Assembly: GCF_016865485.1 (NCBI RefSeq)
Contig: NZ_AP024452.1
Location: 4,734,501-4,798,500, forward strand
Source of the DNA: Luteitalea sp. TBR-22
Lineage (GTDB): Bacteria; Acidobacteriota; Vicinamibacteria; Vicinamibacterales; Vicinamibacteraceae
DNA: 64,000 bases
Direction of reading: 5' to 3'
In this document: piece after piece, positions 26,568 through 53,181 of the stretch
Layout of the letters: each line of letters begins with the position of its first letter
How positions within the stretch are numbered: the stretch's first letter is position 1
Translations under genes and position numbers: made by a program
The notes under the pieces: generated by a model
The model's input: only the letters and a program-made list of their open reading frames with translations
What the model was told of the DNA's origin: nothing
Databases searched by the model: none

Positions 26568-26691
26568 GGGTAGAAGGGTAGAAGGGTAGAAGGGTAGAAG
26601 GCAGAGCGGGAAGGTAGAAGGAACAGAAGGTAGAAAAAGGTAGAAGGGTAGACGTCCTCACGTTCCGCCTTCGTCCTTCCCGCCCTGCCTT
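26568..26691. repeat. GGGTAGAA x4 array with inverted purine/pyrimidine arms
   Basis: Four perfect 8-base units GGGTAGAA (26568-26599) are followed by degenerate purine-rich repeats to about 26654. AAGGCAGAGCGGGAAGG (26598-26614) is complementary to 26675-26691 with one mismatch, so the region can fold back on itself. The right arm encodes the basic C-terminal tail of the histidine kinase. Confidence 0.85.
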
Positions 26692-28094
26692 CTGCTCTTC
26701 TGCTCTTCTCTCGGCAGCAGCAGCGTGAACACCGTGCCCCCCTCCGGCGGGCACGCCACCGTGAGTGCGCCGCCGTGCAGTTCCGCGGTGCGCTGCGCGA
26801 TCGGCAGCCCCAGCCCGCCGCCGCGGGCCTTGGTCGTGAAGAACGGCTCGAACACCTGCTCGCGGATCTCGGCCGGGATGCCGGGGCCCGTGTCGCGCAC
26901 CTGCACTTCCACCATGCCGCCGGGGCGCGCCGCTGTCGTCACCGTGATCCGGCCCGCGCCCTGCAGCGCCTGCGCCGCGTTCAGCACCAAATTGAGCAGC
27001 GTGGCCCGCGTCAGGTCGGGGTCGGCGTGCACGCTCAACGGCTCGCCCGCCGCCTCGAACGCGACCCCGCTGCCCGCCGGGTCCTGCGCAACGGTCGCGA
27101 ACACGTCGCGGATCACGGGCCCGAGTTCGAGCGTGGACGGGCGCGGCGGGCGCGGCCGGGCGAACAGCAGCAGGTCGTTCAGCAGGTCGTTGAGCGACTC
27201 GGTGCGGGTGAGGATTTCCTGCATCACGCCGCGCTCGGGATCGTCCTCCGCGCGCCGACGCATCAGCACCTGCATCGCGCCGCGGATCCCGGCCAGGGGA
27301 TTGCGCACCTCGTGCGCCAGGACTGCCGCCATCTGCCCGACGCGCGCCAGCGCGGCCTGGTGCGTGATGGTGTCCTCCGCGAGCTTGCGGGCCGTGATGT
27401 CGGCACGGATGGCGATGTACTGGTACGGCTTGCCCGCCTCGTTCATGAAGGGAACGATGGTCGTGTCGACCCAGTAGTAGTGCCCGTCCTTGGACCTGTT
27501 GCGGATCTCGCCGTTCCACACCGCGCCCCGCGCCACCGTCCGCCAGAGATTGCGGATGAACTCGGGCGGGTGATAGCCCGAGTTGATGATGCGGTGGTCC
27601 TGCCCGAGCAGTTCCTCGCGCGAGTAGCCGGAGATCTCGGTGAACTTGTCGTTCACGTAGGTGATCCGGCCCTGCACGTCGGTGATCGCCACGATCGCCG
27701 CGGCGTCGAGCGCGCGCTTGAAGTCGCCGAGTTGCTCGAGGTGCGCCTCGGCCTGCCGCTCGAGGATCACGAACCGGCGCACCACGATGGCCGTGATACC
27801 GAACACGAGGATCATCAGCGGGTGGTTGATCACCACGCCCGGAGGCACGTCGGCGCCCCACCCGGCGGCCAGGTCGAACAGCACCAGCAGGGACGCGCCC
27901 GCGGCCGCCACGAGCGGATAGGCCAGCCAGGGCGTCCACAACCCCAGCAGGATCACGCCGACGTACAGCATGCCGACCGCGGCGCCGACCGGCGCCTCGT
28001 AGTCGACGCTGAAGATGAGGGCCGCGAGCAGCAGGCCGAGCAGCGGCAGGGTGCTCGCACGCGAGGAGGTGAGGCGTCGGAAGGTGTTCGACAC
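26658..28094 (-). CDS. NtrB-type PAS sensor histidine kinase
   Basis: This 478-residue inner-membrane protein has about five hydrophobic segments in residues 14-120 and a PAS domain at about 125-245 (ITDVQGRITYVNDKFTEISGYSREELLG plus a PAC motif). HisKA has H261 in LAHEVRNPL; HATPase has NLVLNAAQAL, DTGPGIP and GGGLGLPI. The HisKA type and the sigma-54 regulator encoded upstream in the same direction suggest an NtrB/NtrC-like pair. Start GTG 28094 has a TAGCAT hexamer eight bases upstream. The C-terminal QKSRRQGGKDEGGT is encoded by the repeat region. Confidence 0.93.
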   Translation of the reverse strand: MSNTFRRLTSSRASTLPLLGLLLAALIFSVDYEAPVGAAVGMLYVGVILLGLWTPWLAYPLVAAAGASLLVLFDLAAGWGADVPPGVVINHPLMILVFGITAIVVRRFVILERQAEAHLEQLGDFKRALDAAAIVAITDVQGRITYVNDKFTEISGYSREELLGQDHRIINSGYHPPEFIRNLWRTVARGAVWNGEIRNRSKDGHYYWVDTTIVPFMNEAGKPYQYIAIRADITARKLAEDTITHQAALARVGQMAAVLAHEVRNPLAGIRGAMQVLMRRRAEDDPERGVMQEILTRTESLNDLLNDLLLFARPRPPRPSTLELGPVIRDVFATVAQDPAGSGVAFEAAGEPLSVHADPDLTRATLLNLVLNAAQALQGAGRITVTTAARPGGMVEVQVRDTGPGIPAEIREQVFEPFFTTKARGGGLGLPIAQRTAELHGGALTVACPPEGGTVFTLLLPREEQKSRRQGGKDEGGT

Positions 28095-28102
28095 GCGGGT
28101 CG

Positions 28103-28108
28103 ATGCTA
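28103..28108 (-). promoter_or_regulatory. -10-like box TAGCAT, near-leaderless, histidine kinase
   Basis: TAGCAT is followed by eight bases and the GTG at 28094. Weaker than the other examples because the spacing is longer. Confidence 0.3.
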
Positions 28109-28121
28109 ACCCAGGGCTTGC

Positions 28122-28176
28122 GGCTCGGGGTTCGGCCTCGGGCCTCGGGCCTCGCGGCTCAGGGCTCAGGGCTCAG
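28122..28176. repeat. 7-base array GGCTCGG/CCTCGGG/GCTCAGG
   Basis: The period is exactly seven from 28122 to 28176, while the unit drifts from GGCTCGG through CCTCGGG to GCTCAGG. The GGCTCAG unit also forms the array at 49230. It lies upstream of the kinase start and about 50 bases downstream of the zinc-ribbon stop. Confidence 0.85.
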
Positions 28177-28224
28177 AGAGCACGCGGGCAGAGCAGGACG
28201 GTCTCCGATCGCGCCGTAGGCCGC

Positions 28225-28431
28225 TCAGCGCGGCGACGAGGGGAGCGGGGCGTTGGTGGCGGGCGGGCTGGACACCGGGCGTCCGTCGCGCACGCGGGCC
28301 GACCAGAAATGGCCGCAATCGCACGCGTACCAGGCGATCGTGAGGGTGCTGCCGGCCAATGGCGGCACCCGCGACTGCCCGCACGACGGGCAGGGCATCG
28401 CGAGGCTGTCGAGGCGCTTGCCGGCACTCAT
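28225..28431 (-). CDS. Small zinc-ribbon protein
   Basis: This 68-residue protein has four cysteines in two knuckles, CPSCGQ near residue 14 and CDCGHFW near residue 37, with YACDCGHFWSARV between strands as in small zinc ribbons. It may be a DNA- or protein-binding accessory. It lies between the response regulator and histidine kinase genes on the same strand. The C-terminal tail is Pro/Ser-rich. No promoter was identified and I see no further gene in the 131-base gap 28432-28562. The two paired Cys knuckles support a real gene. Confidence 0.65.
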   Translation of the reverse strand: MSAGKRLDSLAMPCPSCGQSRVPPLAGSTLTIAWYACDCGHFWSARVRDGRPVSSPPATNAPLPSSPR

Positions 28432-28562
28432 GCCCGGACCCTGAGCAACACACGTGCCGACTGCCAGACGGCTGAAAACAGGCGCCGGGCGCGCGGAACG
28501 CTCCGACGCGGAGAGGGAGGCGCCGAACTCTCTCGCAGCGAGGTGGGGAAATCCCCGCGAGG

Positions 28563-29921
<1,359 letters not shown>

Positions 29922-29930
29922 GCACGGCGA

Positions 29931-29936
29931 AGTATA
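29931..29936 (-). promoter_or_regulatory. -10-like box TATACT upstream of the NtrC-type regulator
   Basis: TATACT is followed by nine bases and the ATG at 29921, leaving a leader of about three bases. It directly abuts the 7-base repeat array at 29938. Confidence 0.45.
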
Positions 29937-29937
29937 C

Positions 29938-29998
29938 CGGCCTTCGTCACCCGGCCTTCCGGCCTCGCGACATTCCGGCATCGCGGCATTGCCGCGCG
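29938..29998. repeat. Degenerate 7-base array CGGCCTT/CGTCACC
   Basis: CGGCCTT, CGTCACC, CGGCCTT (29938-29958) open the array and later units degrade. The first 21 bases match the array at 56234-56254 at 19 positions. It occupies most of the gap between the M1-M28 protease stop and the regulator promoter. Confidence 0.7.
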
Positions 29999-30003
29999 CC
30001 CGT

Positions 30004-33000
30004 TCAGCGCGCGGCCAGCGTCACCGTCGCGCTCACCTTCTTCCCCTCGTGCTCGAACACGATCGGCACCGCCTGGCCGGGCGCCAGCGTCTTGAGCACG
30101 TCGGAGTAGGCCGAGAGCGAGGCCAGCGGCTTGCCGGCCATCTCCACGAGCACGTCACCGGCCTTCATCCCGGCCTGCTCGGCGGGAGACCCGGGCACCA
30201 GGCCCGAGGCCTTGACGCCCGGACCGGCGAAGGCGAAGTCGGGGACGACGCCGAAGCCGGCCCGGCGGGGGCCCGCCGACGCGGGCGCCGCGGCCGTCGC
30301 CGGCGCCCCGGCAGTCGGAGTGATGGTGATCGTCAACGGCTCCGGGCGCTCGGCCAGGTAGGCCACCGCCTCACGCGCCACCGTCGCCACGCGCACCAGG
30401 CCGGGCACGTCGACCTTGTCGGCCGTGTCGCCAGGCCGGTGGTAGTCGACGTGCGGCGGCGTGAACAACTGCACGGCCGGAATGCCCCTGGCGATGAAGC
30501 TCGCCTGGTCCGACGACTCGAGGCCCTGCTGTGCCATCTGCGTCTGGATGCCCGTGACGAAACCGATGCCGCGGAACACGTGCGGCCACTCCGTCGCGGT
30601 GCCGCTGCCGATGACCCCGAGGGGCGTCGTGCCGAGCCGGCCGACGCTGTCGATGTTCAGCGCGGCCCGGATGCCTTCACGCGGGCGGACAGGGTGCTCG
30701 ACGTAGTGCTTCGATCCGAGCATGCCCGCCTCCTCTCCCGACACGGCCACGAACACGACCGTCCGGCGCGGCGCCCCGGCCGCCGCCATCACCTTGGCCA
30801 GTTCGATCAGCACCGCCACCCCGCTCGCGTTGTCGTCGGCGCCCGGATGCAGCCTGTTCTCGTCACCGGCGCGCGGATCCGGCCAGCCCATGCCGAGGTG
30901 GTCGTAGTGCGCCGTGACGACCACGGACTGGTCCTTCATGGCCGGATCGCTGCCGGCGAGCACGCCGATGATGTTGACCAGCGTCGCAGGCGCACCTGAT
31001 GGCGATCGCGCCGCCGAGAACGGCTGCCGGTAGCTGCCGTCGGACATCCCGGGCGACAGGCCCGCCGCCTTGAACTGCGCCTCGACGTACTCGGCGGCCT
31101 CGTCGAGGCCAGGCGTACCGATGCCACGCCCGGTGTACGCCGCGGACGCGAGCGTGTCGACGTGCCCCTTCAGCGCCGTCTCCGAGAACACCGCCGGCAG
31201 CGCCGCGAGCGGGGCACGCCCGAGCGACAGCGGCGGAACCGGCGCGGCCTTCGCGGCAGCGCCGCGGAGGTCGACCGACAGCGGCGAGTCCGACGCCTGC
31301 CACTGGCCCTTCAGCACGTTGGTGGGCTCGGCCCCTTCGAACCCGAGGTACGAGTACTTGCCATAGTGGGGCAGCTTGCGTCCCAGGCCGGGCATCGCGT
31401 CGACGCGATCGGCAACGATCCAGCCGAGCGCGTGGTTCGGGCTCGCCGGGTGGCGCCGCACGACGATGGCGGCGTGATCCCGGCCGGCCATCGTCTGGCC
31501 GTCGATCACGAACCGGGTGGCGTCGACGCGCACCGACTTGCCGTCGACCAGCGCCTTGGCGAACCGGTTGTCGCGCCCCAGCAGCCACACCGAGCGATCG
31601 GCGGGCAGCGCCTTGACCTCCGTGTCGAGCACGATGCGCGGGGCGTGGGCCGGGGCCTTCCAGCCCTCCACCATGGCGCGGTAGGCGGCGATGCGAGCCG
31701 CGGAGTCCTTCGCGGCAATCACGACCAGCGGCGCGGCGTCGCCGAAGATCTGTCCGAGCGAGGGCGGCGTCTCGCGCGCATCGAGACGGCGGAACAAATC
31801 AAAGGCGGGATCGACGTGCAGCGCGAGCGGCGTCGCCCCCATCTCGACGCGGAACGCGAAGTCCCTGCCCGTGACCGGCAGCGTCGTCTCGACGGGCTTG
31901 CCGTCGGTCTGGATGACGAGCGGCACGTCGAGCGCGAACGGCTCGCCCGGCTGCACCTGCGAGACACGCCCCTCGACGACGTGCGAGATGCCCTGACGGG
32001 TCACCTTCACGTCGCTGAGCGCGAGCGTCGGCGCACCGGTGCGCGCGGTCCAGTCCCCGAAGAACCGCGCCAGGTCGCGCCCGCTCACCGCCTCCATCGT
32101 CTTCCGCACATCGTCGAACGACGCGCGCTTGCCGCGGAAGTCGCGGTAGAAGCGCGCGAGGAAGGTGCGGAACTGCTCGTCGCCGACCAGGCGCCGCAGC
32201 ATGTGGAAGCCCATCATCGTGCGGCCGTAGCCGATGGCCTCGGTGGCGGCGCTGTGGCGGCCGCGGAACTGCGTGAGCGGAAAGTCCTGCGACGTCGAGA
32301 CGTAGTCGCGGTACTTCTGCAGCGTCGAGCGGCGGTAGGTGGCGTCCTCGCTCCGCTGTTCCTGCATCAGGTGGTCGGCGATGTAGGCGGTGAGGCCCTC
32401 GCACCAGTTGCCGCCCGTCTCGTCGACGAACACGGAGTTGCCCCACCAGTTGTGCAGGATCTCGTGCGGATACGACGAGGTCAGGATGAACGGGAACCTG
32501 ATGATCTGCGGCCCCAGCAGCGTGAAGGACGGCATGCCGTAGCCGGTCTCCCAGAAGTTCTCGACCAGCGCGAACTTGCCGTAGGGGTACGGGCCGATGA
32601 GGCCGCGGTACATCTCGAGGTACTGCGCGGTGGCCGCGAGGTACTTCTGCGCGAGCGCGTTGTCGTCCTCGTGCAGGTAGACCTGCGCCTCGACGGCGCC
32701 GGCCGCCTGCGTGGTGAGCCGGAGCGGGCCGCCCACCAGGTGCACCTGGTCCACCGGCGCCTTCGACGCCCAGCGGGCGCGGCCGTCGGCGTCGCGCGAG
32801 GTGCCTTCCCCCTCGGCCACGACGCGCCAGCCGTCGGGCTGCGCGATCACCGCCTCGAACGTGACCAGTGCCCTCCCGACCAGCGGGTACCAGCCGCTGG
32901 CGCCCGGCAGGTAGACCCCCTCCTTCGAGAGCAGCCCCGGCGTCGAGCGGAAGCCGCGCGTGTACTCCTCGCGCGCATCCGAGAGCGCGAAGTCGAACAC

Positions 33001-33384
33001 GCCCTCGTACTCGACGTGGAAGGCCGCGCCCGGCATCGGCAATTGCACGCGATACCGCTTGATCGCCGGCGCCTTCTGCATCTCCCCGCCCTCGATGTCG
33101 CCGAGCCAGGCGACGTCGCCGAGCGGCACCTCGACTGCCGCCGGTTCGGCCTTCGAGATGCGCAGACGGGCATGCAACAGGAACTCGACCTCGCGCCGGC
33201 CGCCATCGGCCGTGACGTCGGCGCGCACGGCGACCCGCCCGGTCGCCGGGTCGAGCGCGACGTCGAGCTTCTCGTGGACGCGCTCCTGGGCGGCGGCGGG
33301 TGCGGCCGCCCCACATACGGCGGCGAGGCTCAGGAGGACGCGGGACGTGAGGTGCGAAACGCCGGGCAATCGCATGCCCAGCAT
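30004..33384 (-). CDS. Secreted fusion protease: M1 aminopeptidase + M28 peptidase + PDZ
   Basis: This 1126-residue protein has a signal peptide (SRVLLSLAAVCGAAAPAAAQ). An M1-like gluzincin domain has H307-E-I-L-H311 in YPHEILHNWWGN and the third zinc ligand E329 in NWCEGLTAY, 18 residues after H311 as the family requires. A linker of about 250 residues leads to an M28 domain with a complete di-zinc set: VTAHYDHLG, PGADDNASG, VSGEEAGMLG, ALNIDSVGR and FTPPHVDYHRPGD. The last ~95 residues are a PDZ domain (GLVPGSPAEQAGMKAGDVLVEM). It should strip N-terminal residues from peptides in the periplasm. The gene is monocistronic and has a palindrome at its start codon. Confidence 0.93.
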   Translation of the reverse strand: MLGMRLPGVSHLTSRVLLSLAAVCGAAAPAAAQERVHEKLDVALDPATGRVAVRADVTADGGRREVEFLLHARLRISKAEPAAVEVPLGDVAWLGDIEGGEMQKAPAIKRYRVQLPMPGAAFHVEYEGVFDFALSDAREEYTRGFRSTPGLLSKEGVYLPGASGWYPLVGRALVTFEAVIAQPDGWRVVAEGEGTSRDADGRARWASKAPVDQVHLVGGPLRLTTQAAGAVEAQVYLHEDDNALAQKYLAATAQYLEMYRGLIGPYPYGKFALVENFWETGYGMPSFTLLGPQIIRFPFILTSSYPHEILHNWWGNSVFVDETGGNWCEGLTAYIADHLMQEQRSEDATYRRSTLQKYRDYVSTSQDFPLTQFRGRHSAATEAIGYGRTMMGFHMLRRLVGDEQFRTFLARFYRDFRGKRASFDDVRKTMEAVSGRDLARFFGDWTARTGAPTLALSDVKVTRQGISHVVEGRVSQVQPGEPFALDVPLVIQTDGKPVETTLPVTGRDFAFRVEMGATPLALHVDPAFDLFRRLDARETPPSLGQIFGDAAPLVVIAAKDSAARIAAYRAMVEGWKAPAHAPRIVLDTEVKALPADRSVWLLGRDNRFAKALVDGKSVRVDATRFVIDGQTMAGRDHAAIVVRRHPASPNHALGWIVADRVDAMPGLGRKLPHYGKYSYLGFEGAEPTNVLKGQWQASDSPLSVDLRGAAAKAAPVPPLSLGRAPLAALPAVFSETALKGHVDTLASAAYTGRGIGTPGLDEAAEYVEAQFKAAGLSPGMSDGSYRQPFSAARSPSGAPATLVNIIGVLAGSDPAMKDQSVVVTAHYDHLGMGWPDPRAGDENRLHPGADDNASGVAVLIELAKVMAAAGAPRRTVVFVAVSGEEAGMLGSKHYVEHPVRPREGIRAALNIDSVGRLGTTPLGVIGSGTATEWPHVFRGIGFVTGIQTQMAQQGLESSDQASFIARGIPAVQLFTPPHVDYHRPGDTADKVDVPGLVRVATVAREAVAYLAERPEPLTITITPTAGAPATAAAPASAGPRRAGFGVVPDFAFAGPGVKASGLVPGSPAEQAGMKAGDVLVEMAGKPLASLSAYSDVLKTLAPGQAVPIVFEHEGKKVSATVTLAAR

Positions 33385-33457: not shown

Positions 33458-34213
33458 CTAGCCCGCCTCGGCGGCGAACTCGGCGACGAGCGGGAAATGA
33501 TCGGAGCCGCGGGCAGCCGTGTCGCTGCTCACCACCTCGCACGCCGTGAGCGTCGCGACGCCCGGGGACGGCAGGAACACGTAATCGAGTCGGATGTGGG
33601 GCTGCCAGGTCGGGAAGGTGAACCCGGTCTCCCCGGGCCTGGCCACACGGTACCCGTCGGCGTAGCCGGCGTCGAGCACCTGCTGGATGGTCCGCCAGCG
33701 GATGTGGCCGCCACTCATCCAGATGAAGGGCCGCAGCCGCAGCGGCAGGCGCTGCACGTCGAGCCACTCGCCCGGGGCGAGCGTGTTGAAATCGCCAGCC
33801 AGGACGTGGAAACCGCTGGCGCGGGCCGCCACCGTCCGCAACAGCGCGCGCACCTCGTGCACGCGTCGCCGCTCGGTCCACGCGGCGTGGACGGCACTGA
33901 GGTGCACGCCGAAGAGGTGCGGGCCCCCACCGCCGGGCACCAGCTCGAGGAAGGCGTGGCGCGACACCCGTGGGCGGTGCCACGCCACTTCTCGCACCGG
34001 CACGCGGGCCAGGAAGCCGAGCGACTGGCGGTGCGACGTCCCCCACTGCACCATCCCGGTGCGGTGCGCGAGGTGCTCGACGACGACAGGGTCGGTGGCC
34101 TCCTGAAGGAGCACGACGTCGGCCTTCAGCGCCGCGAGCGTCGCGACGATGGCGTCCTCGCGCCCGCGGCCACCCTCGCGGATGTTCCATGTCACCAGCC
34201 GAAATGGCGTCAC
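33458..34213 (-). CDS. Endonuclease/exonuclease/phosphatase-family protein
   Basis: The 251-residue protein shows the DNase-I-like fold in order: VTWNIREGG, VLLQEATD (metal Glu), FGVHLSAVH, VLAGDFNTL (Asp-Asn), RLDYVFL and GSDHFPLVAEF (catalytic His). It lacks a signal peptide, so it should be a cytoplasmic phosphodiesterase or phosphatase. Substrate classes in the family include DNA, phosphoinositides and nucleotides, and the sequence alone does not decide. Its ATG overlaps the TGA of the upstream nucleotidyltransferase gene by four bases, so the two are co-translated. Confidence 0.9.
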   Translation of the reverse strand: MTPFRLVTWNIREGGRGREDAIVATLAALKADVVLLQEATDPVVVEHLAHRTGMVQWGTSHRQSLGFLARVPVREVAWHRPRVSRHAFLELVPGGGGPHLFGVHLSAVHAAWTERRRVHEVRALLRTVAARASGFHVLAGDFNTLAPGEWLDVQRLPLRLRPFIWMSGGHIRWRTIQQVLDAGYADGYRVARPGETGFTFPTWQPHIRLDYVFLPSPGVATLTACEVVSSDTAARGSDHFPLVAEFAAEAG

Positions 34214-34731
34214 GCCGGCGCCTCGTCGTCTCCGATGAGCGTGAGGTAGGGCTGCCCGATGAGTTCGCCACGCAGGTACAGCACCCAGTCCCTCGACGCC
34301 TGCACGTTCACCGGATGACCGGCCAGGTCCGTCAGCGCCTCGCGCAGGTCCTTGAGGGCCGGCGCGATGTCGGGATCTTCCTCCCCCATCGGCCGCGTGT
34401 GCACGCCAGGGACGTAGAAACCTGACAGGTTGTACGCCCCGAGGACGTCGGCCCCGACCAGCGTCAGGTCGACGTCGCTGGTGCCGGGCCCGTCGGCGTC
34501 GAAGGGCGCCTGGTCCTTCCAGCGGATGCCCGTGATGGCGCTGCCCCGGACCACCGCGCGGGTGCGGGGCGGGACCACGGCGAGGATGGCCTGTCGAAAG
34601 GCCTCGAACCGCTGCTCGTCGCCATCGAACACCAGCCTCACGAACGTCTCGCGCTTCTCGCTTTCGGTGAGCCCGCCCTGCGGACGGTCCAGTTCGGGGT
34701 TCTCTGCCGGATCGGGGCTATCGAAGGACAT
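34210..34731 (-). CDS. Nucleotidyltransferase-fold protein
   Basis: The 173-residue protein has [10 protein letters not shown] followed by [13 protein letters not shown], the GS...DxD pattern of the pol-beta nucleotidyltransferase superfamily, where the two Asp bind metal. The long insert between GS and DVD (about 20 residues) is unusual. Residues 1-25 are acidic and Pro-rich, probably disordered. It is the first gene of a two-gene unit with the EEP-family enzyme. It might transfer a nucleotide that its partner removes, but that is inference. No HEPN partner is adjacent. Confidence 0.7.
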
Positions 34732-44395: not shown

Positions 44396-46680
44396 CGGAT
44401 GCGCAGCACGCGCGCGTCCTCGGCAGGCACCTCGAGCTCGACGCTCACGCGCGCCCGGTCGATGCGCGCCTCGAGGGCTGTCCCCGTGGCCAGGTCGCTC
44501 ACCTGCGTGGCCCTGCCCTGGACGCCGACGACGACCGTGCCGCGGGCCGGCGCGCGGCCGTGATTGAGCACGAAGGCCAGGGTCTCGCTGCCGCGCGTGA
44601 GCAGGCGCACCTCGAAGGGGCCGCCGGTGACCTCCACGGGCGGCGTCACGCCGGCCCACGCCAGCAGGCCCGCATGGAAGCGCTCGGCCGCAGCCGTGGG
44701 CGTGCTCTGGTACGCGGCGCTCACGTACGAACCGAGGAGCAATGTCTTGCCTCGGCCGTGGGTCGACAACACCGCGCCGGCGGCGCCACCGGGCAAGGTC
44801 GCGACGACGCGGGCGCGACCGAAGAGCGGCTCCAGCGTCTCCTCGTACCAGCGCCCGGGCAGCACGTCGCCCGCCTGCAGGCCGGGCAGGTCGGAGGCCA
44901 GGCCCGACCAGGTGAGCTGCGTCTTGCCTCCCGTGGCGGTCTGCACCGCGACTTCGCGCGCGCCCATCACCTCCCACAGGCCCAGGCCCGGGATGCGGTC
45001 CGAGGCCACGCCCTTCTCGTTGCTCCACGCCAGGCGCGCCTCCGCGACGAGCGCCCCGCCCTGCTCCACGTACGCGCGCAGCGGCGCCGCCACCGAGTCG
45101 GGCGCCATCACGGGGTACGGGAAGATCACGAGCTTGTACGCCGAGAGCGACTCGGCGGTCACATGGTTCGCGTGCACGTAGTCGATGGGCACGTTCCGGC
45201 CGAAGAGCGCCCGGTAGGCGCCGAGCAGCGAGTCACGCTCGATGCCGACGACCTCGCCCTGTGGCCCGCCGTATGCCGCGGCACGCTGTCGCCCGCCGAC
45301 GAAGTGGGCCAGCGGGTTGTAGACGATCGCCACCTCCGCGCGCACGGGCCGCGCCTCGAGCAACAGGTCGGCATTGGCGGCCACGACCTTCGCGATGGCA
45401 CCAGCCGCCCTGGCGCGGTCGGTGATCGTGCCATCGAGCTGGTTCAGCCCGAACCCGCCGGCCTCGTAGCCCGTGCTCATCGGGTACCACGCGTAGTAGC
45501 TGATGCCCCTGGCGCCGCGCGCCAGCGCCGACCACGTCCAGATTCGCAGGTCGCCGGCGGTCACCGTGGGGCTGACGTTGACGCCGATCGTCCCGAAGCC
45601 GCCCTGCAGCTCGCCGATCCAGAAGCCCTGCCGGCCCTGGTCGTAGCCGAACGATCGGGTGAAGTCGAGCAATGCGCCCCGCCACTGGACATCCCGATCG
45701 ACCAGGGCCGAATGCTTCGGATAGAACGAGGTGCCGTAGTAGTCCACCTGCCGCGCCATCGTCCAGTCGTCGGCCTGTCCTTCCCAGTGGTGCGGCGAGG
45801 CGAACAGCCCGACGCCCGCCGCATGGCTCGTGATGACGACGCCAGGTGCAGCCTTGCGGACGGCGTCGGCGCGATCCTTCAGATCCTCGCCGAGCTTGTC
45901 GACGATGAAGGCCTTCCAGTCGAGATAGTCGGTGAACGAGAGAATCGTGCTGAGGCGACTCGGTTCGACCTCGTCGAAGCTCGTGAAGTGCCGATACCAG
46001 GCGCGATTGAGGGCCTCGACGCTGCCGTACTTGCGCTGCAGCCACGCCCGGAAGCGCGCCTTCGTGTGCACGCAGAAGCAGAACTCCGGATTGGCAATCC
46101 ACGTCGGCGTCGCCCAGTTGACGACGTGAGGCTCGCTCCAGAGGTCGAACCCGAGGAATGCCTTGCTGCGCGCGGCGCGACTGGCCAGCGCGGCGTAGAA
46201 GGCGACGTCGGCGTCGCGCACGCCATCATGGTCGCGACAGTAGCCGGGCGACGACTCCGGCGTGATCGCCTGGCCGTTGCTCGACACGAAGAGGCTGTCG
46301 GGGTGGCGCCTGCCGATCCAGCCCGGCGCCGAGTCCATGTAGACCTGCAGGACGAGCGTCAGCCCCTCCTCCTCGGCGAGTTCGAGCAGCACGTCGAGCG
46401 TCTCGAACTGGTACTGCCGCTCGACGGGCTCGCCGCTCGCCCAGTCGATCCAGGCGCGGATCGTGGTGAACCCCAGGGCCTTGATCTGCTGCACGTCGGC
46501 GCGCCACGCCTCCTTCTTCTGGCGGGCGTCGCGTTCGAGCATCGGCGCGCGGGCCTTGCCGCCGCCGTACCACACCGCCATGGGCAGCACTCGGGCGGGC
46601 GGCGCCGGCGTCCGGGCCGACGGCCGGAGGGTGAGCGTCATCACGCCCAGGGCCAGGCACAGGAGCAACACGCGGCGCAT
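44392..46680 (-). CDS. Secreted GH42-like beta-galactosidase
   Basis: The protein has 762 residues and a signal peptide (MRRVLLLCLALGVMTLTLRP). The TIM barrel has FTTIRAWIDWASGEP and the acid/base Glu in FLGFDLWSEPHVVNW, with the nucleophile Glu in GFWIGELQGGFG. This is followed by a trimerisation-like alpha/beta domain (YKLVIFPYPVMAPDSV) and a C-terminal beta domain. GH42 enzymes remove beta-galactosyl (or arabinosyl) units from oligosaccharides; here it acts outside the cytoplasm. It is divergent from the GH127-like gene with only 84 bases between. ATG 46680 is set by the signal peptide and by a TATCAT box six bases upstream. Confidence 0.9.
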   Translation of the reverse strand: MRRVLLLCLALGVMTLTLRPSARTPAPPARVLPMAVWYGGGKARAPMLERDARQKKEAWRADVQQIKALGFTTIRAWIDWASGEPVERQYQFETLDVLLELAEEEGLTLVLQVYMDSAPGWIGRRHPDSLFVSSNGQAITPESSPGYCRDHDGVRDADVAFYAALASRAARSKAFLGFDLWSEPHVVNWATPTWIANPEFCFCVHTKARFRAWLQRKYGSVEALNRAWYRHFTSFDEVEPSRLSTILSFTDYLDWKAFIVDKLGEDLKDRADAVRKAAPGVVITSHAAGVGLFASPHHWEGQADDWTMARQVDYYGTSFYPKHSALVDRDVQWRGALLDFTRSFGYDQGRQGFWIGELQGGFGTIGVNVSPTVTAGDLRIWTWSALARGARGISYYAWYPMSTGYEAGGFGLNQLDGTITDRARAAGAIAKVVAANADLLLEARPVRAEVAIVYNPLAHFVGGRQRAAAYGGPQGEVVGIERDSLLGAYRALFGRNVPIDYVHANHVTAESLSAYKLVIFPYPVMAPDSVAAPLRAYVEQGGALVAEARLAWSNEKGVASDRIPGLGLWEVMGAREVAVQTATGGKTQLTWSGLASDLPGLQAGDVLPGRWYEETLEPLFGRARVVATLPGGAAGAVLSTHGRGKTLLLGSYVSAAYQSTPTAAAERFHAGLLAWAGVTPPVEVTGGPFEVRLLTRGSETLAFVLNHGRAPARGTVVVGVQGRATQVSDLATGTALEARIDRARVSVELEVPAEDARVLRIR

Positions 46681-46686
46681 GGGGGA

Positions 46687-46692
46687 ATGATA
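46687..46692 (-). promoter_or_regulatory. -10-like box TATCAT, leaderless layout, GH42-like gene
   Basis: TATCAT, then six bases and ATG 46680. The upstream neighbour is the CGGGCAC array, which would occupy the -35 region. Confidence 0.5.
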
Positions 46693-46698
46693 CGGTTC

Positions 46699-46744
46699 CG
46701 GGCACCGGGCACACGCCGGGCACCGGGCACCGGGCACCGGACCC
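46699..46744. repeat. 7-base array CGGGCAC x5
   Basis: Units at 46699, 46706, 46717, 46724 and 46731, with one 4-base interruption after the second, then CGGACCC. It fills the short divergent promoter region between the GH42-like and GH127-like genes. Confidence 0.9.
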
Positions 46745-46764
46745 GGCCATCGAGGACGACACAC

Positions 46765-49221
46765 ATGTCACGCGCAACAGCAGTCATCGCCGGCATCGTG
46801 ACCTGCATCGCGGGCACCGTCGTCGCAAGCGGCGTGGTCGGAGTGGGCGCACAGGCGCCGCCGCCGCGCGACTACCCGGTGCAGCCGGTGCCCTTCACGG
46901 CGGTGACGCTCGACGACGAGTTCTGGGCGCCGCGGATCGAGCGCAACCGGACGGCGTCGATCCCGACGGCCTTGCAGCAGTGCGAGATCACCGGGCGGGT
47001 CGAGAACTTCCGCCGGGCGGCGCGCGTCCTGCGCGGCGAGCCGCTCGAGAACACGAAGCCGCCGGGCTACCCGTTCGACGACAGCGACCTCTACAAGGTC
47101 ATCGAGGGCGCCTCCTACGCCTTGAGCGTGACGCCCGACCCGAAGCTCGACGCCTACGTCGACGAGTTGATCGCGACCATCGCGGCAGCGCAGGAACGCG
47201 ACGGCTACCTGTACACGACGCGGACCATCAATCCTGCCGCCCCGCATCCGTGGGCCGGCACCGCACGCTGGGAACTGGAGCGCGACGACAGCCACGAGTT
47301 GTACAACCTCGGGCACCTGTTCGAGGCCGCCGCGGCGCATCATCAGGCCACCGGCAAGCGCACGCTGCTCGACGTCGCGGTGCGCGCCGCCGATCTCCTC
47401 GACCGCACGTTCGGCCCGGGCAAGGCGTCGATCTGGCCCGGACACCAGGTCACCGAGATGGGGCTCGTGCGCCTGTACCGCGTGACCGGAGAGGCACGCT
47501 ACCTCGCGCTGGCGAAGTTCCTGCTCGACGCGCGCGGCCCCAACGCCGGCGAGAAGACCAACCCTCGCGGACTCGAGTACAACCAGGCGCACCTGCGCGC
47601 CGTCGAGCAGACCGAGCCGGTCGGGCACGCCGTCCGCGCCATGTACATGTACGCGGGCATGGCCGATGTCGCCGCGATCACCGGCGACGTGGCTTACGCC
47701 AGGGCGCTGGATGCCATCTGGACGCACACGGTCGGCAGCAAGCTGTACGTCACCGGCGGCATCGGCGCGACCGGGGCGGGCGAGGCATTCGGCGCGCGGT
47801 ACGAGCTGCCGAACATGAGTGCGTACAACGAGACGTGCGCGTCGGTGGGCATGGATTTCTGGAACCACCGGCTCTTCCTGCTGCACGGCGACGGCAAGTA
47901 CGTCGACGTGCTCGAGCGCACGCTGTTCAACGCGCTGCTGTCGGGCGTTGCCCTCGACGGGCGCACGTACTTCTACCCGAACCCGCTCGAGTCCATCGGG
48001 CAGCACCAGCGCAGCCCCTGGTTCGGTGTCGCCTGCTGCCCGGGCAACATCACCCGGTTCCTGGCTTCGCTCCCCGGTTACCTGTACGCGCACCAGGGCG
48101 ACACGATCTTCGTCAACCTGTATGCGGCCGGCACGGCCCGCATCGACACCGATGGCGGCCACCGCGTCACCCTGCGCCAGCAGACCCGCTACCCGTGGGA
48201 CGGACGCGTCTCGGTGACCGTGACGCCGGAAGCCTCGCGCAGCTTCGCGCTCAAGCTGCGCATCCCGGGCTGGGCCCGCGAGCAACCCGTGCCGAGCGAC
48301 CTCTATCGCTTCGACGACGGGCCCGCGCCGGCGCCGACGCTGACGGTCAACGGCGCGGCCGTGCCGGTCGAGGTCGATCGCGGCTACGCGACGATCCGAC
48401 GCGCGTGGAACGCTGGCGACGTCGTGACGCTGGACCTGCCGATGCCGGCGCGCCGGGTGCGCGCCCATCCGTCGGTCGAAGCCGACCGCGACCGGGTCGC
48501 CGTGCAACGCGGCCCCATCGTCATGGCGGCCGAGTGGCCGGACAACGACGGCGACGTCCGCAACGTCGTCATCGCGGCGGACGCGCCGCTCGCGACGCGC
48601 TTCCGCGCCGACCTGCTCGGCGGCGTCCCGGTGGTCACGACGCGGGGCACGGCGCTGGCCCGCGCCCGCGACGGCAGCCTGACGCGACGCCCGCGCGAGG
48701 TCACGCTGATTCCGTATGCCACGTGGGCCAACAGGGGCGCCGGTCCGATGGCCGTGTGGCTCGCCACCAGCGACGCCGCCGCGAAGCCGCGCCCGTTCCC
48801 CACCGTATCGGTGCGCAGCACGGTGACGACGTCGCCGGCCCGGCGGAGCCCGCGCCCGATCAACGACGGCGAACTTCCCGCCTCGTCAGGGGACTCGACG
48901 GCGTACTTCGACTGGTGGCCCCGCAAGGGCGAGACGGCGTGGGTCGAGTACGCGCTGGCCGAGGCGGCCACCGTCGACCACGCGGCGGTGTACTGGTTCG
49001 ACGACACCGGCCGGGGCGAGGTGCGGGTCCCGGCGTCATGGCACATCGAGTACCGGCAGGGCGACAAGTGGATCCCCGTCCAGGCGACGGGCGCCTACGG
49101 CACGGCGAAGGACGCGATGAACCGCGTCGCCTTCGGCCCCGTTCGCACGACCGCGCTGCGCCTCGTCGTGGTGATGCAGCCCGGCTTCTCGGCGGGCCTC
49201 CAGGAGTGGAGCGTGGACTGA
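46765..49221 (+). CDS. Secreted GH127-like beta-L-arabinofuranosidase
   Basis: The protein has 818 residues and a signal peptide (cleavage near GVGAQA). The (alpha/alpha)6 barrel shows VTLDDEFWAPRIERNR, DDSHELYNLGHLFEAA and GHAVRAMYMYAGMADVA. The active-site set is ELPNMSAYNETCAS (Glu and Cys) and GVACCPGN, as in GH127, where a zinc-bound Cys is the nucleophile. Beta-sandwich domains follow (FALKLRIPGWA; DGELPASSGDSTAYFDWWP near 690). It should remove terminal beta-L-arabinofuranose from plant-wall glycans. GAGG lies about 12 bases before ATG 46765. The stop is followed by a GGCTCAG array. Confidence 0.92.
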   Translation: MSRATAVIAGIVTCIAGTVVASGVVGVGAQAPPPRDYPVQPVPFTAVTLDDEFWAPRIERNRTASIPTALQQCEITGRVENFRRAARVLRGEPLENTKPPGYPFDDSDLYKVIEGASYALSVTPDPKLDAYVDELIATIAAAQERDGYLYTTRTINPAAPHPWAGTARWELERDDSHELYNLGHLFEAAAAHHQATGKRTLLDVAVRAADLLDRTFGPGKASIWPGHQVTEMGLVRLYRVTGEARYLALAKFLLDARGPNAGEKTNPRGLEYNQAHLRAVEQTEPVGHAVRAMYMYAGMADVAAITGDVAYARALDAIWTHTVGSKLYVTGGIGATGAGEAFGARYELPNMSAYNETCASVGMDFWNHRLFLLHGDGKYVDVLERTLFNALLSGVALDGRTYFYPNPLESIGQHQRSPWFGVACCPGNITRFLASLPGYLYAHQGDTIFVNLYAAGTARIDTDGGHRVTLRQQTRYPWDGRVSVTVTPEASRSFALKLRIPGWAREQPVPSDLYRFDDGPAPAPTLTVNGAAVPVEVDRGYATIRRAWNAGDVVTLDLPMPARRVRAHPSVEADRDRVAVQRGPIVMAAEWPDNDGDVRNVVIAADAPLATRFRADLLGGVPVVTTRGTALARARDGSLTRRPREVTLIPYATWANRGAGPMAVWLATSDAAAKPRPFPTVSVRSTVTTSPARRSPRPINDGELPASSGDSTAYFDWWPRKGETAWVEYALAEAATVDHAAVYWFDDTGRGEVRVPASWHIEYRQGDKWIPVQATGAYGTAKDAMNRVAFGPVRTTALRLVVVMQPGFSAGLQEWSVD

Positions 49222-49390: not shown

Positions 49391-50818
49391 TCATGGCTTC
49401 TTCCCCTCAATCCAGTCAGGTTTCTCGGTCGTGGTCGCCAGCCAGCGCACCGGTTCCACGAGGGACGCGACCGCGTCGCGCATGTGCGCCACGTTGACGT
49501 GCCGCAACTCGTCGGAGGGCTGGTGGTACTCCTTGTGCAGCCCGAAGCTCGACACGGTGTGGGCCACCACGCCGCGTCGCGCGAAGCGGATGTTGTCGGA
49601 CCGCTCGAAGAAGCGCTGGTCGGGATGCGGATCGGCGACCAGCCGGGCGCCGTGCTCGGCCAGCTTCGGTCCGAGCGTCGACCGCTCGTAGCCGGTGAGC
49701 CACAGCGTGCCGGCCGCCACCTTGTCGTCCGGCCTGCCGATCATCTCGATCTGCAGGTCGGCGACGATGTCCGAGAGCGGCACGACGGGCCGGTCCACGA
49801 AGTAGCCCGCGCCGTAGCCGCCGGCTTCCTCGCTGCCGAACAACGCGAACACGATGGGTCGGCGCGGGCGTGGCCCCGACGTCAACAGCCGCGCGAGTTC
49901 CAGCACCGCCGTCACGCCAGAGGCGTCGTCGTCGGCGCCGTTGTAGATGGCATCGGTGACCTCGCCGGCCCTCGCCTCGCGCGCGCCGATGTGATCGAGG
50001 TGCGCCGACAGGATGACCGCCTGCGAGGCGGCCGACGGATCGCTGCCCGCGAGGCGCCCCACGACGTTCCACGTGCGCGTGCGCTCCAGTGGCACCAGCT
50101 CGCTCTCGAGCCGCACCGGCGTGCCATCGGCCATTGCGGTGATGGCCTCGTGCGTGGCCGCGTCGAGCGTCAGCACCGTCGGGTTGGCCGGCGGCCCCGG
50201 CGGCACGCCCACCAGTTGCGAGGCGATGCGATCGGATGGCCCGCGGGCACGAGCCCCGGTCGGCGTCGCCGCCGCCTTGCGGAGGACCAGCACCGCCCCG
50301 CCGAGGGCGCCGAACGCAGAGGTCGGCGCGTCGGCCGGCAGGATGACCACCGCCCCTGGCGGCACCGGCGCGCCGGCCACGAAGTGACGCAGCGGCCCGG
50401 CCAGCCGCGGCCCCGACACCGAGTTCACGGTGAACGCCTCACCGCGCGTGAACGTGCGGTCGCCGGCCGTGAGCACCGGTGGCGCGGCGGCCTTGTAGTG
50501 CTGCACCTCCACCTGCTGCACGAACCAGCCGTCGTCGCCCATCGGCTCGAGGCCGAGTGCGGCGAGCTGCGCGCCGATGTAGGTGGCGGCAATCCACTCG
50601 TCGCGCGTGCCGCTGCCACGGCCGTTCAGCGCGTCGCTGGCAAGGAACCGCATGTGCGCGGCGATGCGCCGCTCGAGCAGCGCCGCGTCGACGGCCGGGG
50701 CGGCCGCGACGGCCCCCTTGTCCGGGGTGACCTCCGGCGCGGGCGTGCCGTTGCAGGCCACGGCAGCGGCCAGCAGGCTGGCGAGGGCAATCGGGCGGGA
50801 TGTGTGGGTGCGAAACAT
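49391..50818 (-). CDS. M28-family peptidase lipoprotein
   Basis: This 475-residue protein has the lipobox LAAAVAC (Cys22). A PA-type insert lies at about 125-235. The di-zinc peptidase motifs are LSAHLDHIG, NGADDDASGV, FGSEEAGGYG, IEMIGRP and GLHKEYHQPSDE. It would be a lipid-anchored aminopeptidase in the periplasm or outer membrane. It is separate from the M28 domain of the fusion at 30004 and diverged from it. ATG 50818 has a TACTTT box seven bases upstream. The stop codon merges into the repeat array. Confidence 0.93.
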   Translation of the reverse strand: MFRTHTSRPIALASLLAAAVACNGTPAPEVTPDKGAVAAAPAVDAALLERRIAAHMRFLASDALNGRGSGTRDEWIAATYIGAQLAALGLEPMGDDGWFVQQVEVQHYKAAAPPVLTAGDRTFTRGEAFTVNSVSGPRLAGPLRHFVAGAPVPPGAVVILPADAPTSAFGALGGAVLVLRKAAATPTGARARGPSDRIASQLVGVPPGPPANPTVLTLDAATHEAITAMADGTPVRLESELVPLERTRTWNVVGRLAGSDPSAASQAVILSAHLDHIGAREARAGEVTDAIYNGADDDASGVTAVLELARLLTSGPRPRRPIVFALFGSEEAGGYGAGYFVDRPVVPLSDIVADLQIEMIGRPDDKVAAGTLWLTGYERSTLGPKLAEHGARLVADPHPDQRFFERSDNIRFARRGVVAHTVSSFGLHKEYHQPSDELRHVNVAHMRDAVASLVEPVRWLATTTEKPDWIEGKKP

Positions 50819-50845: not shown

Positions 50846-52291
50846 TCAGTACCGGTCGACGCGCTCCGACCACGTGTCGCCCAGGATCATCCGGGTCGGC
50901 CGGCCCGCCACTTCCTCGAACCGCACGATCTCGCCGACCGACTGGCCACCCCCGGGCGCCATGAGCCTGAAACGGCCGTCGCCGAGCGGCTCGAGCCTCA
51001 CACGGGACTCGGCCGCAGGCGCCTGGGCCTGCAAGAGCACCAGCTGCTTGTTCAGGAGCACCACCTGGATGATGTCGTCGGAAAGGGGACTGCGATAGAG
51101 ACCAGCAAAGCGGGCATAGGCGTCGTCCCACTGCGCGGTCGCCTTCGGCTGGGCCGCCTTCACCACGGCGGCCCCGACGGTGGCGAGCAGCTGGTCGGCG
51201 ATGGCGCCAGGATTCGAGTCGTTGGTGTTGGTGAGCACCACCACGCCGATCTTGTCGTCGATTTGCGCGCGGGTCATCGTCGTGTTGCCGGGATATCCAC
51301 CGCCGTGCCCCACGTAGGTGCGGCCCTTGACGCGCACGTGGTCGAAGCCCAGACCCGATCCGCTCTCCCAGTCCTCCTCCACCGACCGCACCCGCAGCGC
51401 CTCCCGCCAGGACCCGGCCGAAAGGACGTTGGCGCCGCCGGCCGGACCGCGCCTGAACTGGGCGGAGATGAACCTCGAGAGATCCGAGACGGTCGACGTC
51501 ATGCCGGCGGCCGCGGCCATCGCGTGTGCGTCGACGAACGGCAGGATGCGCCGTGTGCCGGAGGCCGTGCGGCTGGCGTAGGGCGTCGCCAGGCCGGGGT
51601 CCGGCGTGTCGATGCTCGAGGAGGTCATGCCGAGCGGCGCGAGAATCCTGGCCTGCACGTAGTCGGCCCACCGCTGGCCGGTGATCTGCTCGACGACCAT
51701 GCCGGCGATCGCGAACGCGAGATTGGAATACTTCCACCGCGTCTGCGGCGGGAACGTGGCCTTGCGGCCGGACATGAGCGCCCGCAACTCGGACTCGGTG
51801 GGAAAGCTGAGACTGGACCAGTGATCGCGGGCCTCACGCTGCAGGCCGCTGCTGTGCGACAGCAGCTGCTCGATGGTGATCGGGCCGTCGTCTGGCCCGG
51901 CCGGCGCCACGGCGAACCACGGCAGGTGCTTCACGACCGGGTCGTCGAGCCGCAGCTTGCCGGCCTCGCGCAGTTGCAGGATGGCGATGGCGGCAAAGAG
52001 CTTGGAGTTCGAGGCGATGCGGAAGCGCGTGTCGATGGTCATCGGCACCTGCTTCTCGACGTTCGCGAAGCCGTAGCCCTTCGACCACACGAGTTGCTGG
52101 TCGTGCACGACGCCCACCGCGACGCCCGGGAGTCCCCGATAAGCCATCTGGCCTTCCAGCCAGGCACTGAACAGGCGCACCGAGGCCTGCACGTCGGGGT
52201 TGTCGGCCAGGGACGTGGCTGGTGTGGCAGCCGGCTGGCCGAGTGCTGGTGCGGCCAGCAGCAGAATCAACGCGAAGGCGCGGTAAAGCAT
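50846..52291 (-). CDS. Secreted serine hydrolase (class C beta-lactamase fold)
   Basis: The protein has 481 residues and a signal peptide (MLYRAFALILLLAAPALG). The catalytic set is S94-N-S-K97 in RIASNSKLFAA, Tyr in KYSNLAF (Y-x-N) and HGG in GHGGGYPGNT. A C-terminal beta-barrel domain at about 370-475 is typical of D-aminopeptidase and esterase relatives. It may act on D-amino-acid peptides or esters; beta-lactamase activity cannot be assumed. GGGAG lies about six bases before ATG 52291. It precedes the M28 lipoprotein gene on the same strand. Confidence 0.9.
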   Translation of the reverse strand: MLYRAFALILLLAAPALGQPAATPATSLADNPDVQASVRLFSAWLEGQMAYRGLPGVAVGVVHDQQLVWSKGYGFANVEKQVPMTIDTRFRIASNSKLFAAIAILQLREAGKLRLDDPVVKHLPWFAVAPAGPDDGPITIEQLLSHSSGLQREARDHWSSLSFPTESELRALMSGRKATFPPQTRWKYSNLAFAIAGMVVEQITGQRWADYVQARILAPLGMTSSSIDTPDPGLATPYASRTASGTRRILPFVDAHAMAAAAGMTSTVSDLSRFISAQFRRGPAGGANVLSAGSWREALRVRSVEEDWESGSGLGFDHVRVKGRTYVGHGGGYPGNTTMTRAQIDDKIGVVVLTNTNDSNPGAIADQLLATVGAAVVKAAQPKATAQWDDAYARFAGLYRSPLSDDIIQVVLLNKQLVLLQAQAPAAESRVRLEPLGDGRFRLMAPGGGQSVGEIVRFEEVAGRPTRMILGDTWSERVDRY

Positions 52292-52343
52292 GTGGGTCTC
52301 CCTTGAATGGCTGAGCTTATCAGGAGACGCGTCTGCGGCCTGA

Positions 52344-52363
52344 CCGTCGCGCAAGCGCGACGG
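52344..52363. repeat. 9-bp perfect palindrome CCGTCGCGC-AA-GCGCGACGG
   Basis: The arms are 52344-52352 and 52355-52363. It lies in the divergent region between the serine hydrolase and the OmpR-type regulator, next to the 7-base array, and could be a REP-like element or operator. Confidence 0.55.
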
Positions 52364-52506: not shown

Positions 52507-53181
52507 ATGCGTGCGCTGCTGGTGGAGGACGACCCGCGGATCGCCGAGTTCGTCGCCAATGGGCTGCGCGAGGCGGGCTTCGTCGTCGACGTGGCGGCCG
52601 AGGGCGACACGGGACTGCGGCTGGCGACGACCGGGACGCACGACGTCGCGGTCATCGACCTGATGCTGCCGCACCTCGACGGCCTCGGCCTCATCCAGCA
52701 GATGCGGACCCGCGGCGTGCAGACGCCGGTGCTGATCCTGTCGGCCAGGCACTCGGTGGACGACCGCGTGACCGGCCTGACGGCCGGAGGCGACGATTAC
52801 CTCACCAAGCCGTTCGCGTTCCCCGAGCTGCTGGCGCGCGTCCACGCCCTGATCAGGCGCGCGACGCAGGCGCCGGTCACCACGCAGCTCGCGGTCGGCG
52901 ACCTGCGCCTCGACCTGGTGAGCCGCACGGCGACGCGCGACGGCCGCGTCATCGAGCTCCGCCCGCGCGAGTTCACCCTGCTCGAGTTCCTGATGCGCCA
53001 CGCCGGCCGTGTCGTCTCCAAGACGATGATCCTGTCGCACGTCTGGGACTACTCGTTCGATCCCGGGACCAACGTGGTCGACGTGCTCGTGTTCCGCCTC
53101 CGCGAGAAGGTCGACCGCGGCTTCGACACGAAGCTGATTCACACGGTGCGCGGGGTGGGCTATGTCCTCAAGGTGGCCTGA
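52507..53181 (+). CDS. OmpR-family response regulator
   Basis: The protein has 224 residues. The receiver has the acidic pair in LLVEDDPRI, the phospho-acceptor in VAVIDLMLPHLDG and Lys in YLTKPFAFPELLARV. The winged helix DNA-binding domain is VIELRPREFTLLEFLMRHAG followed by TNVVDVLVFRLREKVDRGF and VRGVGYVLK. It is the first gene of a two-component operon: its last 20 bases overlap the kinase gene. DegP follows, so envelope stress is a plausible input, though unproven. Confidence 0.96.
   Translation: MRALLVEDDPRIAEFVANGLREAGFVVDVAAEGDTGLRLATTGTHDVAVIDLMLPHLDGLGLIQQMRTRGVQTPVLILSARHSVDDRVTGLTAGGDDYLTKPFAFPELLARVHALIRRATQAPVTTQLAVGDLRLDLVSRTATRDGRVIELRPREFTLLEFLMRHAGRVVSKTMILSHVWDYSFDPGTNVVDVLVFRLREKVDRGFDTKLIHTVRGVGYVLKVA

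Follow-up and report, generated by a model that had tools for sequence, protein, structure and literature searches.

The window analysed here, a stretch of 64,000 nucleotides of contig NZ_AP024452.1 from Luteitalea sp. TBR-22, carries on its minus strand a gene for a predicted composite zinc peptidase, in which an M1-type domain, an M28 domain and a PDZ domain are joined in one chain. A single open reading frame (ORF) of 1126 residues spans positions 30004-33384 exactly from ATG to stop, and the proportion of G and C at its third codon positions (0.94) is the composition of a genuine gene. Its features are listed below by window position, strand and residue number.

30004..33384, minus: whole fusion gene, 1126 residues (ORF, translation and AlphaFold2 model)
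33286..33384, minus: likely signal peptide, residues 1 to about 33, ending near APAAAQ (read from the sequence)
32665..33282, minus: M1-type N-terminal beta domain, residues 35-240 (model strands, profile match to other M1s)
32035..32664, minus: M1-type zinc catalytic domain, residues 241-450 (Pfam M1, Foldseek)
32512..32562, minus: residues 275-291, ENFWETGYGMPSFTLLG, the place of GAMEN in canonical M1s, with its Glu and Asn absent
32398..32466, minus: HEILH-X17-E zinc motif, residues 307-329
32227..32229, minus: Tyr386 (IGYGR), at the catalytic Tyr position
31813..32025, minus: strands resembling a beta-sandwich, residues 454-524, where M1 enzymes have domain III (model strands)
31237..31779, minus: alpha/beta domain, here called LINK, residues 536-716 approximately (without a Pfam family; its fold resembles that of the C-terminal domain of BcsB)
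30280..31236, minus: M28 domain, residues 717-1035, with a full ligand set (Pfam, alignment, structural match)
30007..30267, minus: PDZ domain, residues 1040-1126 (Pfam, model)

The first-pass annotation had described this gene as an exported triple fusion of M1, M28 and PDZ. The fusion is borne out by the single ORF and by three Pfam matches above cut-off, namely M1 (43 bits against 27.7, residues 307-445), M28 (148.5 bits against 21.3, residues 804-1006) and PDZ_6 (36.7 bits against 27, residues 1062-1109). PDZ_2 also exceeded its cut-off (29.7 bits over 27), PF00595 fell slightly below its own (22.7 against 23.2 bits), and the 25 NCBIfam models listed for the protein all stayed below their cut-offs. 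The protein is apparently exported, since its N-terminus reads as an export signal, with a short n-region, a hydrophobic stretch (helix 11-26 of the model) and an A-x-A end. We also ran the full-chain structure prediction that the first-pass annotation had proposed, with an input alignment in which the window protein was joined by 53 of the 56 complete fusions of 1090-1170 residues, three near-copies being omitted by hand; the AlphaFold2 model had a mean predicted local distance difference test score (pLDDT) of 88.2 and a predicted template modelling score of 0.84.

The first approximately 525 residues resemble M1 aminopeptidases such as PepN and LTA4H (PF01433) in fold, in HEXXH, in the third-ligand Glu and in the Tyr. 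In Foldseek, the top match of the M1 half was PepN (4qhp, E 2e-23), and all 50 matches listed were M1 aminopeptidases. Profile-profile alignment of the M1 half against 13 other M1s from the same and related genomes gave a probability of 99.96% and an E-value of 4e-39 (hhalign), and TAF2 chains were also among the profile matches. HEILH occupies residues 307-311 and E329 is the 18th residue past the second His, as previously noted, which makes the spacing HEXXH-X17-E; H307, E308, H311 and E329 constitute the ligands and general base. Tyr386 stands at the position that we take to be catalytic, by analogy with M1 enzymes.

To these we compared 110 relatives, of which 30 came from a search with the whole protein and 80 from a scan of GTDB genomes. 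A profile of M1 plus linker found at least 587 relatives in those genomes, and the best 80 were analysed; retaining the nearest ones inflates the share of fused forms. HEXXH-X17-E was present in all 110 (30/30 from the protein search and 80/80 from the scan). Because the 80 were picked with the pattern HE[ILV][LA]HN[WY]W, which lies over the zinc motif itself, HEXXH is given by construction in those rows and only the other 30 test it; these 30, found without the pattern, all keep HEXXH, the third Glu and the Tyr. Tyr occurs at the catalytic position in 110/110 relatives, with GYDK in L118.

Next, we considered the motifs that define M1 aminopeptidases. The literature gives M1 enzymes the consensus HEXXH-X18-E and the signature HEXXHX3G[DENQ]X6WX6E (PMC2241622, in the part of the text available), and the Glu of GAMEN touches the N-terminal amine of the substrate and helps to hold the catalytic water (PMC3244404, likewise in part). 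The fusion has neither HEXXH-X18-E nor GXMEN, and its sequence does not match the signature, whereas it does have the M1 fold, the family score and the catalytic Tyr. GxME[NH] was found nowhere in the sequences of the 110 relatives; at the GAMEN place, GxG[M/I] precedes Pro in 107 of them and Ala in three, and in the profile alignment with other M1s a gap falls on the Glu-Asn of GAMEN. The loss of this Glu suggests that the site no longer needs a free N-terminus. A second M1-type class has (G/A)GHSP at the GAMEN place (L141, L153, L154, L159-L161, L163-L165, L167-L169) and has among its members a 908-residue frame from the genome that carries the window, so that the fusion is not alone in lacking GAMEN.

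The M28 half is in keeping with an aminopeptidase. It resembles M28 aminopeptidases (BSAP 6hc6 and Vibrio 1amp; PF04389) in fold, in the five ligands and in the general base, and the nearest structure listed by VIA-align was BSAP (6hc6_C, Z 32.8, root-mean-square deviation 2.4 over 262 aligned residues). The full five-ligand set read earlier was confirmed: H826, D850, E885, D912 and H982, together with the general base E884, are invariant in 54/54 aligned fusions, their roles being those that we assume from the numbering of the Vibrio aminopeptidase. Thus, alignment found the metal ligands kept in both the M1-type and the M28 domains, and the catalytic residues of the composite peptidase are kept in the relatives read. 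This M28 domain differs from the known enzymes in being placed behind M1-LINK and before PDZ, and Pfam gave no PA-domain match in the M28 part of the protein.

The linker of about 250 residues, previously left unassigned, instead comprises the beta-sandwich-like strands of residues 454-524, which from the general architecture of M1 enzymes we presume to occupy the place of domain III, and a confidently folded alpha/beta domain, LINK. When residues 536-716 were modelled alone, the pLDDT was 93.5. M1 enzymes carry the helical domain IV where this alpha/beta domain sits in the fusion. The LGRDNRFAK motif noted earlier falls inside LINK, and a stronger conserved motif there is KLPHYGKYSYL...N...KGQW...SPL. 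No Pfam family matched the window's copy of LINK at E 0.1, and among 54 rows seven families turned up, each in one or two rows; BcsB was matched weakly in two of the 54, with a best E-value of 0.015. The best structural match was the C-terminal domain of the cellulose-synthase subunit BcsB (6yg8_B, Z 10.9, root-mean-square deviation 3.5, 156 aligned residues), and Foldseek matched LINK to BcsB 9fmt_E (E 4.7e-5). Other families among the matches listed scored Z 8.6 and below, best hits of unrelated folds usually reaching 7-8. We therefore consider, with moderate confidence, that the modelled LINK shares its fold with the BcsB C-terminal domain, at a sequence identity of only about 15%; this likeness implies no function.

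We also searched for the same domain order elsewhere, as the first-pass annotation had suggested, and found that it recurs across bacterial phyla. Within the phylum of the window, the fusion occurs in one stop-free frame in 24 of 297 sampled genomes, the window's own included, where a match was counted if it covered at least query residues 111-1113; in a 25th genome (G030) the fusion is split over two contigs. Among the best 80 relatives, 62 have the complete order M1-LINK-M28-PDZ, in nine named phyla: Pseudomonadota (25), Acidobacteriota (7), Planctomycetota (7), Ignavibacteriota (6), Calditrichota (4), Bacteroidota (4), Nitrospirota (2), Eiseniibacteriota (1) and Thermodesulfobacteriota (1), with five lacking a phylum rank. 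Since most relatives are metagenome bins, single phylum placements may be binning errors. Five others read M1-LINK-M28, four of them truncated by the contig end and one (L100) beginning at a contig end and stopping inside M28; 12 read M1-LINK (L055 and L072 truncated by the contig end), and one reads M1-LINK-PDZ. An assembly artefact or chance fusion was rejected, because all four modules are present in 86 of the 109 rows of a quick tree and in many phyla. Seven pattern matches in viral contigs included no true relative.

On this tree, which is unrooted and holds 109 of the 110 rows, the fused or unfused state changes at least seven times. M1-LINK proteins without the fusion make up outer groups (L045-L049; L077, L096, L123 and L125), others are nested among the fused ones (L084, L095 with L119, L099, L106 and L118), and L105 has no M28 and retains PDZ. 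For the inner cases, loss of M28 with M1-LINK kept is the simplest reading. That M1-LINK persists without M28 in several lineages suggests that this half is useful on its own.

Based on these results, we propose that the protein is most likely an exported endopeptidase and aminopeptidase in a single chain, with a probability of roughly 0.5. Sequence and model show an M1-fold gluzincin (beta domain, catalytic domain and beta-sandwich) followed by a BcsB-like alpha/beta domain, then by a co-catalytic dizinc peptidase of the M28 family and, at the C-terminus, by PDZ. Because the GAMEN Glu and Asn that meet the free N-terminus of a substrate are missing, the M1-type site may cut peptides internally, or may need no free amino end. 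The M28 site would then trim residues off the newly made N-termini, the PDZ would hold or recruit substrate tails, and LINK would set the spatial arrangement of the two enzymes. The job might be periplasmic peptide clearance or processing, and many lineages encode ChaN/Tiki, an M16 peptidase or PD40 alongside. More tentatively, the group could be an unnamed, widespread branch of the M1 fold that has turned into a zinc endopeptidase, with GAMEN Glu-Asn deleted, X17 spacing and an alpha/beta domain replacing helical domain IV, fused in most of the members read here to M28 and PDZ as a periplasmic cut-then-trim chain, and working in many lineages with a ChaN/Tiki-PDZ protein of the same operon.

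If this is true, then the M1 fold has a bacterial branch that lacks the hallmark motif of exopeptidases, keeps the zinc chemistry and is joined to a true aminopeptidase. It would be a natural test of GAMEN function, and it would give a partner set (ChaN/Tiki-PDZ, PD40 and M16) to a large group with relatives annotated as 'M1 family aminopeptidase'. A search of open-access papers found no description of an M1-M28-PDZ triple fusion. A 2019 survey of PDZ proteins has M28-PDZ ('ZEP') and ChaN-PDZ as separate uncharacterised families; these share with our proteins the association of M28 and of ChaN with PDZ, and an M1-M28-PDZ chain is not named in the portion of the survey available (PMC6411480). 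The bifunctional M1 leader peptidases AplP and NosP combine endo- and aminopeptidase action, as predicted for the fusion; according to an extract of their report (PMC13039773), however, both are carried out by a single M1-family protease in which GAMEN and X18 are conserved, whereas the fusion has two active sites in one chain.

Several observations weigh against internal cutting by the M1-type site. AplP and NosP have an intact GAMEN and can nevertheless work as endopeptidases too, and aminopeptidase O lacks GXMEN except for its Met, yet is an aminopeptidase in vitro (PMC13039773 and PMC2241622, both in part); given these cases, the motif decides neither way. The second amine-binding residue, from domain I of M1 enzymes (Gln/Glu), aligns only weakly, to Phe145. 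In addition, a plasmid-borne and more distant M1-LINK relative from Azospirillum thermophilum (L170:4899-6875), outside the 110 rows, has HEXXH-X16-E and GxGFP, so that the spacing of the zinc motif varies across the wider group; L171, also outside these rows, has X17. Lastly, one HMMER alignment (5dll) matches the VE of VENFW to the GAMEN Glu. We rejected this equivalence, because the M1s L152 and L157 carry VE together with a separate GGMEN or GGTEH, so that VE is not the Glu of the motif; the gap on Glu-Asn in the profile alignment also speaks against it.

These observations bear directly on the idea, contained in the first-pass annotation, of two exopeptidases in one chain. Two aminopeptidases of complementary specificity, with the M1 site sensing the free N-terminus by some other means, as aminopeptidase O has to do, would account for the M1 fold, the Pfam M1 score over cut-off and the retained zinc ligands and Tyr; moreover, two plasmid records label M1-LINK relatives 'M1 family aminopeptidase', although by annotation only. 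The absence of the GAMEN Glu and Asn in 110/110 relatives, X17 in place of X18 and the weak alignment of Phe145 with the domain-I position speak against it, and we regard it as rather unlikely, albeit with a precedent (aminopeptidase O, PMC2241622, in part). The claim of two exopeptidases thus stands for the M28 half and is weakened for the M1 half, not refuted, as GAMEN loss is compatible with aminopeptidase activity. In other words, the first-pass annotation is partly supported: the observation was right, and the interpretation half right.

We also considered the possibility that only the M28 site works, the M1-like part serving for substrate binding or as a scaffold without catalysis of its own. 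TAF2 is such a silent M1-like module, TAF2 chains were among the profile matches, and both M1 signatures are departed from. However, none of the 30 rows retrieved independently of the pattern departs from HEXXH, the third Glu or the Tyr, and M1-LINK persists where M28 has been lost, so we judge a silent module improbable.

We also counted the neighbouring genes of the relatives, which we take in favour of the endopeptidase and aminopeptidase reading. The counts refer to 77 of the 80 loci, those with 1 kb or more of sequence on one side; the rows depend on one another, and the search profiles were seeded from these very loci. ChaN/Tiki genes lie within 5 kb in 24 loci and are adjacent in 16 (12 on the same strand), PD40-propeller genes lie within 5 kb in 25 and are adjacent in 20 (16 on the same strand), and M16 peptidase genes lie within 5 kb in 12 and are adjacent in nine (eight on the same strand), so that at least one of the three is adjacent in 39/77 loci. 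A PDZ profile also matches 19 of the 24 ChaN ORFs. Pfam analysis of chosen neighbour ORFs (80 of 132) found ChaN in 12/40 upstream and PD40 in 12/40 downstream. A ChaN/Tiki gene, usually with PDZ, was observed directly before or near M1-LINK(-M28-PDZ) in L057, L060, L065, L080, L095, L119 and others, as well as in L171:3715-6977. In the independent annotation of Azoarcus sp. KH32C, a 'ChaN family lipoprotein' gene overlaps an M1-LINK gene ('M1 family aminopeptidase') by 4 bp, and the M1-LINK gene of Azospirillum thermophilum has no adjacent ChaN. Such a gene pairing looks like a conserved periplasmic operon. ChaN is uncommon elsewhere in the window's phylum (18 matches in 40 genomes, 24 genomes with none), although this base rate covers that phylum and most ChaN-bearing loci are in Pseudomonadota. 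Against a partnership in the window's own genome, its single ChaN gene, with what reads as a PDZ-like tail, lies 1.5 Mb from the fusion, and other genes adjoin the fusion, so that the partnership is not demonstrated there.

A dedicated job, in which the chain would process or protect a specific partner (for example, a haem- or iron-related ChaN system) and not clear peptides, would suit the ChaN neighbours and the 4-bp overlap, but no ChaN match lies near 53/77 loci (some with short flanks), PD40 neighbours are equally common and ChaN is distant in the window's genome, so we hold it to be quite improbable.

A sigma-54-type response regulator and a PAS histidine kinase (26658-29981, minus) follow the fusion immediately downstream and share its strand, and two genes upstream is a 173-residue ORF (34210-34731, minus) without a Pfam match. 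The regulator and kinase pair is kept in a same-genus genome (response regulator 92% identical) and in none of the seven other regions compared, and the 173-residue ORF is 76% identical in the same-genus genome. A conserved operon in the window was rejected, as, of the eight regions, just that from the same-genus genome has this ORF, an EEP-family gene, the sigma-54 regulator and the histidine kinase beside the fusion; the flanking genes therefore say little about function.

Elsewhere in the window, a separate M28 peptidase of 475 residues (49391-50818, minus) adjoins a beta-lactamase-fold gene (50846-52354). A 1553-residue GH127 protein (44560-49221, plus) has approximately 780 N-terminal residues with no Pfam match at 1e-5, and an HtrA-like trypsin-PDZ protease (54750-56228, plus) follows a response regulator paired with a histidine kinase (52507-54580).

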